A stretch of DNA of 37,958 nucleotides from an uncultured Bacteroidales bacterium (GTDB taxonomy: Bacteria > Bacteroidota > Bacteroidia > Bacteroidales > Muribaculaceae), in NCBI GenBank assembly GCA_902779125.1, contig CACZAC010000041.1:1-37958 (forward strand), in the 5' to 3' direction. Positions 18,599 to 37,537 of the stretch are shown here, in pieces; the first letter of the stretch is position 1, and every line of letters starts with the position of its first letter. The notes beneath the pieces are model-generated. The model made no database searches. It was not told where the DNA came from and saw only the letters and a program-made list of their open reading frames with translations. Made by a program: the position numbers and the translations under genes.

Positions 18599-18633
18599 CT
18601 CGCAGTTTAGAGTTTAGTGTTTAGAGTTTAGAG
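18599..18633 (+). repeat. Heptamer composite repeat, copy after glyA
   Basis: CTCGCAG leads into AGTTTAG, AGTTTAG, TGTTTAG, AGTTTAG (18604-18631). These 35 bases are identical to 18740-18774. Both copies are preceded by GC-rich GCTCGC/GAGCGC sequence and followed by a -CCGCGCTCT- and -GCCCCACGCTAAG- segment. It starts 13 bases after the glyA stop. The gene-free stretch 18587-19001 consists mainly of these repeats. Confidence 0.9.
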
Positions 18634-18739: not shown

Positions 18740-18777
18740 CTCGCAGTTTAGAGTTTAGTGTTTAGAGTTTAGAGGGG
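18740..18777 (+). repeat. Heptamer composite repeat, second copy
   Basis: The same 35 bases as at 18599-18633, here preceded by GCGAGCGCTGCTCGC (a palindrome-like stem) and followed by AGGGGCAACCGCGCTC, closer to the 2335 copy (AGGGGCGTCCGCG). Confidence 0.9.
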
Positions 18778-33713: not shown

Positions 33714-36170
33714 ATGAGCGAAAAGACTACTGGAAAGAAAAACAAGCGTCGCAGCATTGTCCGCAAGATGTGGACAGCGTTTGCCATCTTTGTGGCACTC
33801 GTGACGCTGTTGTTTGTGTTGATTTACAATGGAGTGATTGGCTATATGCCCCCCATCGACCAGCTGAAGAATCCCACCGACAAGTTTGCATCGACCATTT
33901 ACAGTGCCGACGGTGTGGAAATGGGCCGCTATTACCGCAGCCGCAGCAACCGCATCTATGTGGACTTTGACGAGATGTCGCCGCACTTGACCGATGCCTT
34001 GATTGCCACCGAGGACTCCCGTTTTGACGAGCATTCGGGCATCGATGTCAAAGCTATCGGCCGCGCTGTCATCAAGCGCATCCTCATGGGCCAGAAGAGT
34101 GCCGGTGGTGGCAGTACCATCACCCAGCAGCTTGCCAAGCAGCTGTATTCGCCCGAGAGCCACAACATCTTTGAGCGCGCCTTGAAAAAGCCGGTCGAGT
34201 GGGTCATTGCAGTGAAACTCGAGCGCTACTATACCAAGGACGAGATCATCAAAATGTACTTCAACCAGTTTGACTTCCTCAACAACGCTGTCGGCATCAA
34301 GATGGCATCCGAGGTCTATTTTGACAAGGATCCTAAGGACTTGAACATCCAGGAAGCGGCAACGCTGGTGGGCATGTGCAAGAATCCGTCTTATTATAAC
34401 CCTGTGCGCTATGGCGAGCGTACCCGTCAACGACGCAATGTGGTGTTTGAGCAGATGGTCAAGGCTGGCTATCTGAGCGAAACCGAGTGTGAGCAACTCA
34501 AGGCCCTGCCCCTGGTTATCAAGTTCAAGAAACTGGACCACAACGACGGACCGGCTCCCTACTTCCGCGAGGAGTTGCGCCGTGTGATGAGCGCCAAGAA
34601 GCCCAAACGCAGCGATTACCCGTCATGGAACCAGCAGGCGTTTGTCGACGACTCGGTAGCATGGGAGGTGAATCCGCTCTACGGCTGGTGCAACAAGAAC
34701 ACCAAGCCCGACGGTTCACATTATGATATCTACACCGATGGTTTGAAGATTTATACCACCATCGATTCCCGCATGCAGGAATATGCCGAGAAGGCAGTTC
34801 ACAAGCACATGAGCAAGACGCTGCAGCCTGCCTTCCTGCGTGAGCGTGGTGGCACCAAGAATCCTTACACCAACAACAAGAATGAGCTCTCCAGCGCTGG
34901 TAAGCAGGCACTTATCAATGCTGCTATTCGCCACAGCGAGCGCTACCGTGTGCTCAAGAGCCAGGGCAAGAGTGATGCTGAAATCATGGACAACTTCAAG
35001 AAGCCGACCCAGATGCATCTGTTTAACTATGAGGGCGGCTTTGATGCTCAGATGACGCCGCTCGACTCGTTGCTCTATACCAAGTCGTTCCTGCGTTGCG
35101 CCATGATGTCGATGGATCCTGTAACGGGCTTTGTCAAGGCCTATGTGGGTGGTCCCAACTTCCGCTTCTTCAAGTATGACATGGTTTCGACCGGTCGTCG
35201 CCAAATCGGTTCGACCGTGAAACCGTTTGTCTATTCCCAGGCGATTGAGTTTGGTGGCTTGACGCCTTGCTCAACGCGTCCTGGCGGTGCCCCCAACATC
35301 ATCTGGCACAACGAGGTGTATAATCCTGCCAATGAGGGTAGCGGCGGTGGTATGACGCTGAAACAGGCGTTGACCTACTCCAAGAACTGGATTTCGGCCG
35401 GCTTCATGCGCGGTACGCGCGAGAACTGGATTGAGCGCAACGGCTACTATACCATGGCGCCCGACGAGTTGGCGAAGTGGATGCACAGCTTCGGTATCAC
35501 GAGCTACCTTGACCCCGTGCCCGCATTGAGCTTGGGCGCCTGTGAGGTATCGCTGCGTGAGATGGTGGCAGCCTATTCGGCATTTGCCAACGGTGGTATG
35601 CGCGTTGAACCCGTGTATGTGTCACGCATTACCGACAACCGCGGTAACGTGCTCGCCGAGTTCACGGGCAACCAGACCGAGATTATGAGCGAGGACACCT
35701 ACCTGAAGATGCTCTCGATGCTCTTGAATGTTGTCAACGAGGGTACTGGTGCGCGTCTGCGCTATGCCTATGGCATCAATGCTGAAATGGGTGGCAAGAC
35801 CGGTACGACTAACTTCCACAGCGACGGTTGGTTCATGGGCTTCACGCCCGAACTCGTGACCGGCGTGTGGGTAGGCGGCGAGGAGCGCTACATCCACTTC
35901 AACAGCATGGCGATGGGTCAGGGTGCCGAGGCGGCGCTTCCCATCCTGGGCTACTTCATGAAGTGGATATATGACGACAAGAACCTTCCCTACAAGCAGA
36001 GCACCAAGTTTGACTTCCCCAAAGGATTCAATCCCTGTGGTGACGAACTGGGCGGCTACTACGGCGCTGGCGGCGGAAGCTGGTCCGGCGGTGGCGGTGG
36101 CGGCGGCGACGCTGGCGGCGACGGCGGTGGTGGCGGCGACGATGCTGCAACCGAAGGACTGTTTGATTAG
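33714..36170 (+). CDS. Class A penicillin-binding protein (PBP1A)
   Basis: An 818-aa bifunctional peptidoglycan synthase. It has a basic cytoplasmic start, one membrane helix (19-45) and a GT51 glycosyltransferase with catalytic E100 in ATEDSRFDEHSGID plus GGSTITQQLAKQLY. The transpeptidase has S500-xx-K503 (GSTVKPF), SKN at 556-558 and KTGTT at 695-699. The last 40 residues are almost all Gly, Ser, Asp and Ala, an unusual flexible tail. Its TAG stop (36168-36170) overlaps the left terminal repeat of the four-helix-bundle unit by two bases, so that unit borders the gene exactly. Confidence 0.95.
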   Translation: MSEKTTGKKNKRRSIVRKMWTAFAIFVALVTLLFVLIYNGVIGYMPPIDQLKNPTDKFASTIYSADGVEMGRYYRSRSNRIYVDFDEMSPHLTDALIATEDSRFDEHSGIDVKAIGRAVIKRILMGQKSAGGGSTITQQLAKQLYSPESHNIFERALKKPVEWVIAVKLERYYTKDEIIKMYFNQFDFLNNAVGIKMASEVYFDKDPKDLNIQEAATLVGMCKNPSYYNPVRYGERTRQRRNVVFEQMVKAGYLSETECEQLKALPLVIKFKKLDHNDGPAPYFREELRRVMSAKKPKRSDYPSWNQQAFVDDSVAWEVNPLYGWCNKNTKPDGSHYDIYTDGLKIYTTIDSRMQEYAEKAVHKHMSKTLQPAFLRERGGTKNPYTNNKNELSSAGKQALINAAIRHSERYRVLKSQGKSDAEIMDNFKKPTQMHLFNYEGGFDAQMTPLDSLLYTKSFLRCAMMSMDPVTGFVKAYVGGPNFRFFKYDMVSTGRRQIGSTVKPFVYSQAIEFGGLTPCSTRPGGAPNIIWHNEVYNPANEGSGGGMTLKQALTYSKNWISAGFMRGTRENWIERNGYYTMAPDELAKWMHSFGITSYLDPVPALSLGACEVSLREMVAAYSAFANGGMRVEPVYVSRITDNRGNVLAEFTGNQTEIMSEDTYLKMLSMLLNVVNEGTGARLRYAYGINAEMGGKTGTTNFHSDGWFMGFTPELVTGVWVGGEERYIHFNSMAMGQGAEAALPILGYFMKWIYDDKNLPYKQSTKFDFPKGFNPCGDELGGYYGAGGGSWSGGGGGGGDAGGDGGGGGDDAATEGLFD

Positions 36171-36201
36171 TTAATAGTTAATAGAGAATAGTTAATAGTT
36201 G
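36169..36201 (+). repeat. Left 33-bp arm (heptamer-based)
   Basis: Starts AGTTAATAGTTAATAG and ends AGTTAATAGTTG. It is the perfect inverse of 36629-36661. The first two bases are shared with the PBP1A stop codon. Confidence 0.95.
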
Positions 36202-36205
36202 TTTT

Positions 36206-36568
36206 ATGGCAGACAGTTTGACTTTTGATAAGAGCAAGGATTTTGCTATAAGGATAGTCAATCTCTGTAAATACCTGCGTACTGACAAACGCGAGTATAT
36301 CTTGTCTAAACAACTCTTACGCTCTGGAACCTCGATAGGTGCCAACATCTCTGAAGCGTTATATGGCGTCAGCCGTAAAGACTTTCTTGCTAAAGCGTTC
36401 ATCTCGTTAAAAGAATGTGCTGAAACTAAATATTGGCTAGAATTACTGTTCAAGACTGATTATTTATCAGAAAGTGAGTTTAATAGCATCGATAGAGACT
36501 GTACCGAACTACTTAAACTTTTGACCAAAATAGTTAAGACTACAAGGCAAAATGATTCTGATGAATAA
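36206..36568 (+). CDS. Four-helix-bundle protein (S23 / 23S rRNA-intervening-sequence protein family)
   Basis: 120 aa, all helical: FDKSKDFAIRIVNLCKYLR, YILSKQLLRSGTSIGANISEA (residues 31-51, the family's most conserved segment), SRKDFLAKAFISLKECAETKYWL and a last helix. The fold is shared with proteins encoded in 23S rRNA intervening sequences and with the Avd accessory protein of diversity-generating retroelements; the molecular role of stand-alone copies is unknown. It is more AT-rich than PBP1A or folD. Only 35 bases separate it from the PBP1A stop and no promoter box is seen, so read-through expression is likely. Confidence 0.88.
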   Translation: MADSLTFDKSKDFAIRIVNLCKYLRTDKREYILSKQLLRSGTSIGANISEALYGVSRKDFLAKAFISLKECAETKYWLELLFKTDYLSESEFNSIDRDCTELLKLLTKIVKTTRQNDSDE

Positions 36569-36578
36569 ACAAGATAAG

Positions 36579-36620
36579 AAAAGGGACTTTAACAAATCTG
36601 TTAGAGTCCCTTTCTTTATT
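36579..36620 (+). terminator. Terminator inside the four-helix-bundle unit
   Basis: AAAGGGACT/AGTCCCTTT with inner TAACA/TGTTA around AATC, followed by CTTTATTTTT. It is 10 bases after the stop and before the right arm. Confidence 0.85.
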
Positions 36621-36628
36621 TTTAATAG

Positions 36629-36661
36629 CAACTATTAACTATTCTCTATTAACTATTAACT
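36629..36661 (-). repeat. Right 33-bp arm (heptamer-based)
   Basis: Starts CAACTATTAACTATTC; exact reverse complement of the left arm. The last codons of folD (Ser and stop) are read from this arm. Confidence 0.95.
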
Positions 36662-37537
36662 TGAATAAAATTCCTTTTTGGCAGCGGCTAGGGTGTTTTT
36701 CATCAGGGAGCAGATGGTCATGGGGCCAACGCCGCCGGGGACGGGGGTGATGTACTCACACTTGGGAGCCACCTCGTCAAATTTCACGTCGCCATTCAGG
36801 CGGTAGCCGGTCTTGCTGTTGGGGTCGGCAACGCGGGTGGTGCCCACGTCGATGACAACGGCGCCTTCTTTCACCATGTCGGCGGTGACGAAGTCGGGAC
36901 GGCCGATGGCGGCGATGATGATGTCGGCCTGGCGGCACTCCTCCTTCAAGGTTGCCGAGTGGCTGTGGCACACGGTCACCGTCGAGTCGCCGTGATTCTT
37001 CTGGAGCATGAGCTGAGCCATGGGCTTGCCCACGATGTTGCTACGGCCCAGCACCACGCACTTTTTGCCCGAGGTGGGGATGTTGTAGCGCTGCAGCAGC
37101 GTGACGATGCCCAGAGGGGTGGCTGAAATGAAGCTCGGCAGACCCAGCGTCATGCGGCCGGCGTTCATCGGGTGGATGCCGTCAACATCCTTGCGGTAAT
37201 CGATGGCATTGATAACCTTTTGCTCGTTGATGTGCTTGGGCAAGGGCAGTTGCACGATAAAGCCGTCAACGTCGGGGTCTTCGTTCAGTTGCTTGATGCA
37301 AGCCAGCAGATCCTCCTCGGTGGCGTCGGCCTCCATACGGATGAGCGACGACTTGAAACCGCATTTCTCGCAAGCGATGACCTTGTTCTTCACATAGGAT
37401 TCAGAACCACCGTCATGACCCACCAGCACAGCGGCCAGGTGCGGGCGCTTCTGTCCTGCAGCAATCATCTGGTCCACCTCTGCCTTGATCTCTTCCTTGA
37501 TGGTAGCGGCAGTTGTTTTTCCGTCTATCAGTTTCAT
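36656..37537 (-). CDS. folD: Bifunctional methylenetetrahydrofolate dehydrogenase / methenyltetrahydrofolate cyclohydrolase
   Basis: Interconverts 5,10-methylene-, methenyl- and 10-formyl-THF. It is 293 aa. Landmarks are [14 protein letters not shown] with the catalytic Tyr/Lys (about 38-51), [11 protein letters not shown], the NADP site [14 protein letters not shown] and the C-terminal [15 protein letters not shown]. The C-terminal FYSS ends in the heptamer repeat arm: its last Ser and the stop codon lie within 36656-36661. It links to glyA in one-carbon metabolism but stands alone here. Confidence 0.95.

Follow-up and report, generated by a model that had tools for sequence, protein, structure and literature searches.

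The S23 proteins are known from intervening sequences (IVS) of 23S rRNA genes, as in Leptospira and Coxiella, where the gene sits in the loop of the IVS. In the Coxiella IVS, tandem heptameric repeats (GACAGAT) of strain-variable copy number lie directly 5' of the S23 open reading frame (ORF), and the paper on it states that S23 function is not known and cites old proposals that such IVS are transposition remnants or mobile (PMC4990558). Here we describe a 37,958-nucleotide stretch (hereafter the window) of contig CACZAC010000041.1 from an uncultured Bacteroidales bacterium, in which a gene of the same protein family is enclosed by two inverted arrays of 7-bp units. Compared to the IVS, which sit in 23S rRNA genes and are excised by RNase III, the window unit lies between the protein genes PBP1A and folD and has heptamer arrays as both arms; short 23S motifs, a weak probe, detected no rRNA in the S23 loci scanned. 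We propose that this S23 gene and its two inverted arrays likely belong to a family of minimal mobile DNA elements found widely among bacteria, with S23 probably recognizing its own ends.

Intergenic 7-bp arrays of the same kind have been described as TAACTGA repeats in Beggiatoaceae, cyanobacteria and Bacteroidetes, and the heptamer arrays of cyanobacteria go by the name STRR. On the other strand TAACTGA reads TCAGTTA, which is one arm unit of two S23 loci collected here (L061 and L065). The TAACTGA repeats were described as direct and possibly horizontally transmitted, by a mechanism that was not evident, and neither "S23" nor "four helix" occurs in the searchable part of the text (PMC4679880). 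Nor do these arrays correspond to the constant-size tandem repeats described by Subirana and Messeguer, whose units have 20-21 or 52 nt, not 7 (PMC8161180). In the open-licence literature searched, to which subscription journals do not belong, no paper linking S23 to heptamer arrays was found except for the passing mention in Coxiella, nor any that joins the heptamer repeats of MacGregor with the Coxiella S23 heptamers. REPIN/RAYT systems resemble the S23 units in that small hairpin repeats apparently rely on a type-matched protein. They differ in that RAYTs are HUH transposases with conserved palindromes, whereas S23 is a four-helix bundle and its unit sequence varies freely. Miniature inverted-repeat transposable elements (MITEs) and insertion sequences likewise combine inverted ends with a short target duplication, but they have a fixed terminal repeat, whereas the S23 unit lacks a transposase and ends in variable modular arrays.

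In the window, AGTTAAT heptamer units form exact 33-bp inverted arms around the S23/PF05635 gene, spanning 493 bp from arm to arm. The left arm (36169..36201, plus strand; AGTTAATAGTTAATAGAGAATAGTTAATAGTTG) and the right arm (36629..36661, minus strand), its exact reverse complement, both show a period of 7 in Tandem Repeats Finder (TRF) and reach an ungapped inverted score of 33/33, compared to 8 for a displaced control pairing within the same locus. The enclosed gene for a 120-aa S23, or 23S rRNA intervening-sequence protein (IVP), four-helix-bundle protein (36206..36568, plus strand) is followed by a terminator-like hairpin (36571..36622, plus strand), which also lies between the arms. The host genes run into the element from both sides: the stop codon TAG (36168-36170) of PBP1A (33714..36170, plus strand) overlaps the left arm, and that of folD (36656..37537, minus strand), at 36656-36658, lies inside the right arm. 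The first-pass annotation of this DNA had described just this arrangement of exact repeats, gene, terminator and overlapping stop codons, and all of it held. Unlike an insertion sequence, in which a transposase is encoded between inverted repeats, the unit has S23 as its sole plus-strand ORF of at least 90 aa, with no transposase inside the arms; a 91-aa minus-strand ORF (36178-36453) that overlaps an arm was not searched.

The window protein scores above the curated cut-offs of PF05635 (96.3 versus 33.8 bits) and TIGR02436 (109.6 versus 24), and its AlphaFold2 model is a confident four-helix bundle with a mean pLDDT of 93.8. Structural similarity search using Foldseek gave as best matches 2rld and 2gsc, solved relatives with five chains each, the latter available since 2006; the Avd protein of diversity-generating retroelements (DGR) was found at E 0.03 (4dwl), and the DGR complex 8ub7 is also similar. 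The window protein has no match to the bAvd profile (PF22296) at E 0.001 and is not assigned to DGR Avd by that profile, and six other S23 proteins reach 24-36 bits, under its cut-off of 40. Eight positions are invariant in a 32-sequence alignment (L33, Q36, S43, I44, N47, I48, E50 and E73); they all sit on helices 2 and 3 and could have a structural or functional role. Two weak PF05635 matches in longer frames of 226 and 189 aa (L004 and L005; G000:C49 and G000:C5) perhaps represent another four-helix family. The idea of a phage gene was rejected, as a tblastn search of 50,697 phage records with L037, a protein from an S23 subfamily other than the window's, gave no match.

S23 genes were found on 33 plasmid records, mostly cyanobacterial, and inverted arms are clear by eye in six of the eight plasmid loci inspected. 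The armed genes lie between nrdB and nrdA in Nostoc edaphicum (AGGGAGT), between cas6 and cas4 in Anabaena 90 (AGGTGAC) and next to a TraM-domain gene in Nostoc C052 (AGGGAAC); the arrays flanking the gene in Pseudanabaena galeata appear to be direct, and the case of PCC 7003 is doubtful. Near-identical plasmids yield filled and empty alleles, in which S23 with both arms is inserted as a whole. Between Nostoc linckia and plasmid C of Trichormus variabilis, the empty site AAAAAGTAATTAACAAAT becomes AAAAAGTAAT, followed by the arms with S23 and then GTAATTAACAAAT, an insertion of 423 bp with an exact duplication of GTAAT. Comparison of Scytonema with Aulosira revealed the same insertion with GTAAT. 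Within a single strain, Nostoc ATCC 53789, plasmid pNsp_a differs from its sister pNsp_c by an insertion with an exact TTCTA duplication, and pNsp_c compared to Nostoc C052 gives a duplication of ATG (3 bp exact) or of four out of five bases. Aulosira, Trichormus and Scytonema moreover carry, at unrelated sites, DNA matches to the pNsp_a element that cover only ~420 bp at 78-81% identity. Decayed or S23-less forms occupy the same sites, such as a broken S23 in Nostoc C052 pC052_E, and heptamer hairpins without S23 in Brasilonema and at the TraM site of pNsp_c.

It is the cyanobacterial relatives of the unit, as distinct from the window copy, that show the insertion, inverted ends and target duplication (two exact 5-bp cases) of a MITE-like element. 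Judged from allele comparison, the unit is shown to insert with both arms, to duplicate 5 bp at two sites and to decay, and at one site it carries the gene in both orientations. In the window, TGATT (36164..36168) adjoins the outer side of the left arm and its partner TGAAT (36662..36666) that of the right arm; these suggestive sequences, matching at four of five bases, are a possible, unproven remnant of a decayed 5-bp target duplication. Among the cyanobacterial plasmids, three S23 units (L238, L242 and L243) lie within CRISPR operons, at cas6/cas4 and cmr2/cmr3 junctions. The cas6/cas4 junction of Dolichospermum (L313, 688-933) holds a different insert, with GTTGGGTT/AACCCAAC ends, where Anabaena 90 has its S23 unit.

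In the genome of the window (3.35 Mb, 97 contigs), three S23 genes score above the cut-off of the family, and two further hits are weak. All three true genes lie between matched inverted arrays with a different unit each: AGTTAAT in the window, AGTTAGG/AGTTAGA at L002 and AGTTTAG at L001. Their true flank pairs score 31-33, and mispaired flanks never reached 14, where only six pairings are possible and were drawn 300 times. The motif TAATAGTTAATAG occurs 35 times in the genome, compared to twice for the reversed control, at 27 separate places of which the window arms are two. At the places fetched (those on C58 and C69 left out), the motif is mostly intergenic by eye and often begins at or just past a stop codon; several places have a second inverted array of another unit close by, some after a GGCATC-like stretch.

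PF05635 matches are found in 91 of the 101 genus genomes searched (81 over the cut-off) and in 232 of 296 sampled genomes of the phylum. Matched arms, defined by an ungapped inverted score of 14 or more within 300-nt flanks, were present in 24/30 and 28/30 genus loci (the second set includes the window again), in 50/80 loci GTDB-wide (the best 80 of 570 confirmed relatives, from many phyla) and in 10/30 loci of the phylum, all sets consisting of best-scoring loci and thus not being random samples. Mispaired flanks passed in 1.0% of cases GTDB-wide and 1.3% for the phylum, the only two sets in which this control is clean. Ungapped scoring left out two "solo" and nine folD-locus genes. A gapped test, from which short loci were dropped (retaining 28/30 genus, 28/29 window-type, 75/80 GTDB-wide, 8/10 bAvd, 19/20 weak bAvd and 26/29 folD loci), gave 23/28 and 27/28 for the genus, 51/75 GTDB-wide and 12/30 for the phylum, with 9/400 GTDB-wide and 16/400 phylum mispairings. 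A chance inverted repeat is ruled out by the mispaired and displaced controls. By the gapped test, no arms were found at 26 folD loci or at eight bAvd loci above 58 bits; on the latter, a small set not checked singly against PF05635, the idea that arms come with the fold in general was rejected. Among the other loci that the bAvd profile retrieved, 12 of 19 have arms.

A strong period of 7 or 14 characterizes 104 of 173 upstream and 86 of 173 downstream S23 flanks; among 331 control segments, six have period 7 and three another period. Each element end is built from repeated units of 7 bp, or sometimes 8 bp, in place of a fixed terminal sequence; the units often have an AG core, and their sequence varies from element to element but agrees between the two ends of one. 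Across 114 elements, the unit often begins with AG, continues with T, G or A and leaves the other four positions free; the AG is partly built in, since the phasing of each arm gave preference to units starting with AG or GG. The upstream-arm strand is C-poor (9.7% C). A minority of elements have period 8, such as ACAAGAAG (L046, L047, L052, L153, L208, L209, L217 and L235, the first three of which group in the tree). In a subfamily of five loci (L036, L042, L043, L055 and L057), the arms end by eye in a non-heptamer stretch like AAGTANNATTACNNTCGCCTG, which could be a second recognition site.

Arm type follows the S23 clade. Among 54 of 62 loci used for pair analysis (arm score at least 14), different-site pairs share 7-mers in 20/22 cases at S23 identities of at least 75%, 40/142 at 60-75%, 9/299 at 45-60%, 4/129 at 30-45% and 6/711 below 30%, and none of 500 permutations reached the observed arm-protein correlation. 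Array types elsewhere in the genomes follow a similar pattern. Three genomes seen with an AGATAAG-armed S23 at PBP1A-folD have 45, 93 and 58 AGATAAR hits, and of the other 98 genomes 12 have 1-20 hits and 86 none. AATGCAY arrays are present in all 14 genomes seen by eye to have an AATGCAY-armed S23, compared to 21 of 49 others of the subgroup, whose S23 copies were only partly examined. Any of the three array types tested occurs in two of ten genomes without a PF05635 match and in 71 of the remaining 91. This co-variation of arm type and clade suggests that S23 probably recognizes its own heptamers.

The alternative that survives best makes S23 a passenger that serves something else, in MITE-like elements moved in trans by a host or insertion-sequence transposase that recognizes the hairpin or the arms. 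The arms enclose no encoded transposase, inverted ends accompany 5-bp duplications at the clean insertions, and S23-less forms occur at the same sites (L253 and L250), all as such elements would have it. However, the ends differ between clades without any fixed sequence, so that one transposase could hardly read them by sequence; moreover, arm type varies with the S23 clade, arrays elsewhere in a genome match its resident S23 in type, and the folD and bAvd gene sets are armless. We consider a mere passenger unlikely.

A second alternative starts from RNA. In the predicted fold of the transcribed element, the arms pair into one stem that closes the whole unit and leaves the gene as the loop (z -8.66, 100 shuffles). 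S23 might act like the DGR Avd with a reverse transcriptase in trans, insertion then occurring by reverse transcription. The structural likeness to 4dwl and 8ub7 fits this route, as do the heptamers that precede S23 in a 23S rRNA IVS excised by RNase III (PMC4990558). But any exact DNA palindrome would fold as RNA, and the bAvd loci above 58 bits, which encode the protein of shared fold, have no arms (0/8). An RNA route appears rather improbable, a little more so than the passenger. Neither the window nor any of eight loci has an Rfam match at the gathering threshold, and an Rfam RNA family was therefore rejected as the identity of the unit.

The site of the window copy was compared in 29 relatives, the best matches among 93 genomes with folD. 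PBP1A adjoins folD in 28 of them, with a near-full S23 in eight (in two frames in L077), a remnant in one, heptamer stretches without S23 in four and neither S23 nor array in 15 (arrays by eye); a separate search added three further S23 copies adjoining folD. The 11 PBP1A-folD copies in the tree form one clade (support 97/94; 96% of bootstrap trees), and it therefore seems that a single entry of the gene was followed by frequent loss. Relative to the window, four of 12 site copies, the window included, are reversed, and these four do not form a group in the tree. In L076 the interior including the terminator is reversed between the arms, with a gene DNA identity of 94% (340/363) and 79-95% for 100-nt blocks of folD; inversion or re-insertion would both give such an arrangement. 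One branch has changed arm type on both sides, having AGATAAG (L101, L104 and L106) as opposed to AGTTAAT-like units in most others, so that the arms evolve together. Two relatives (L084 and L088) carry CTATAG-based repeats that are not heptamers, such as GATGCTATAG, between PBP1A and folD.

That the site copies are a single clade, 70-97% identical to the window protein, with arms retained, could also mean that the gene is immobile at present and that its arms persist as a stem used in regulation or RNA processing; MacGregor proposed in 2015 that such repeats have roles in translation (PMC4679880). The insertion alleles and DNA-level copies at unrelated sites, together with decayed and empty alleles at the PBP1A-folD site itself, make this very unlikely. 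Landing of S23 units in pre-existing heptamer arrays as genomic target sites was rejected and has next to no chance of being right: S23-less arrays are common and the cyanobacterial repeat SDR5 reportedly targets heptamers, but the empty alleles at three plasmid sites (1, 6 and 7) contain no heptamer array, and inverted, matched arms are not expected from landing in one array.

The first-pass annotation had guessed at a minimal mobile unit, to be abandoned if close relatives all carried the gene at this site with diverged flanks and other S23 genes lacked arms. Neither is the case, given the empty sites on cyanobacterial plasmids and in 15 of 28 relatives and the arms at 3/3 S23 genes of the same genome and 50/80 GTDB-wide, and the guess now extends well beyond the locus for which it was made.

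Several observations weigh against a mobile element whose S23 reads its own ends. The window copy itself is, by its phylogeny, an old resident and not a recent arrival. Independent exact 5-bp duplications number only two; sites 2, 3, 4 and 5 of the plasmid comparison show no clean duplication, nor does PCC 7003 versus 7002. Contig C4 of the window genome has two inverted AGTTAAT arrays 1.6 kb apart around a non-S23 gene. The phylum sample has arms in only 10/30 loci (12/30 gapped), some failing loci showing degenerate 7- or 8-mers by eye, and the bAvd control of 0/8, to be set against 12/30 for S23 of the same phylum, is small. Within the genus, where arm types and flanking genes are shared, mispaired flanks often pass the threshold (17-21% ungapped; 93/400 and 102/400 gapped); like the mispaired folD flanks (134/400, gapped), they are also inflated because loci in both orientations put homologous flanks face to face. 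Units without AG exist, such as AATGCAY and AATTGAG. The associations between arrays and arm types are confounded by descent, with only some S23 copies examined per genome, and the AGATAAR counts overlap and include the arms themselves (14/58 in G070 and 10/45 in G059). Moreover, genome G084 has 20 AGATAAR hits, yet its two examined S23 copies bear AGTTAAC and AGTTAGG arms; AGATAAG arms had been expected on the second of these (L262), which has the AGTTAGG type instead.

For the mobile S23 element, we propose that the whole unit inserts and duplicates 5 bp of target. The four-helix bundle would read the repeated unit modularly, as arm/clade co-variation suggests, and draw the two ends together; S23 might cut and join the DNA on its own, or a host enzyme might be recruited to do so. 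The S23-less arrays and hairpins may be deletion derivatives, or products mobilized in trans by an S23 of the same type, and the two arms are probably kept alike via template switching between inverted copies during replication. Both gene orientations between the arms at one site could arise by inversion or repeated insertion. By analogy, the heptamers 5' of S23 in published 23S rRNA IVS suggest rRNA-resident members. A bolder extension, possible though doubtful, is that S23 is a new, element-encoded recombinase or synapsis protein without a known catalytic fold that reads a modular seven-base code, the scattered heptamer arrays of cyanobacteria, Bacteroidota and further phyla being footprints of its elements and the 23S IVS their landings in rRNA.

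To our knowledge, it has not been established how 23S rRNA IVS move or where the heptamer arrays of bacteria come from. If the proposal is true, one element family would account for S23 function, IVS movement and the origin of heptamer arrays, each of which is testable. The ends of such a mobile element would moreover be free to drift in sequence while remaining periodic and matched, a logic that we know of in no described transposon.

Heptamer arrays are also found elsewhere in the window. AGTTTAG arrays at 18604-18633 and 18745-18774 are 141 bp apart within a longer repeated composite, in which the array is followed by a GCATCCGCGCTC-like and then a CGCTAAGGCGCAAAG-like stretch. AGTTTAG units occur as well at 2343-2369, 5' of a GCGTCCGCG stretch. 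At 743-789, an AGTTTCT-type array precedes an inverted CTCTAAA array (842-871), so that two unit types face each other without an S23 gene.

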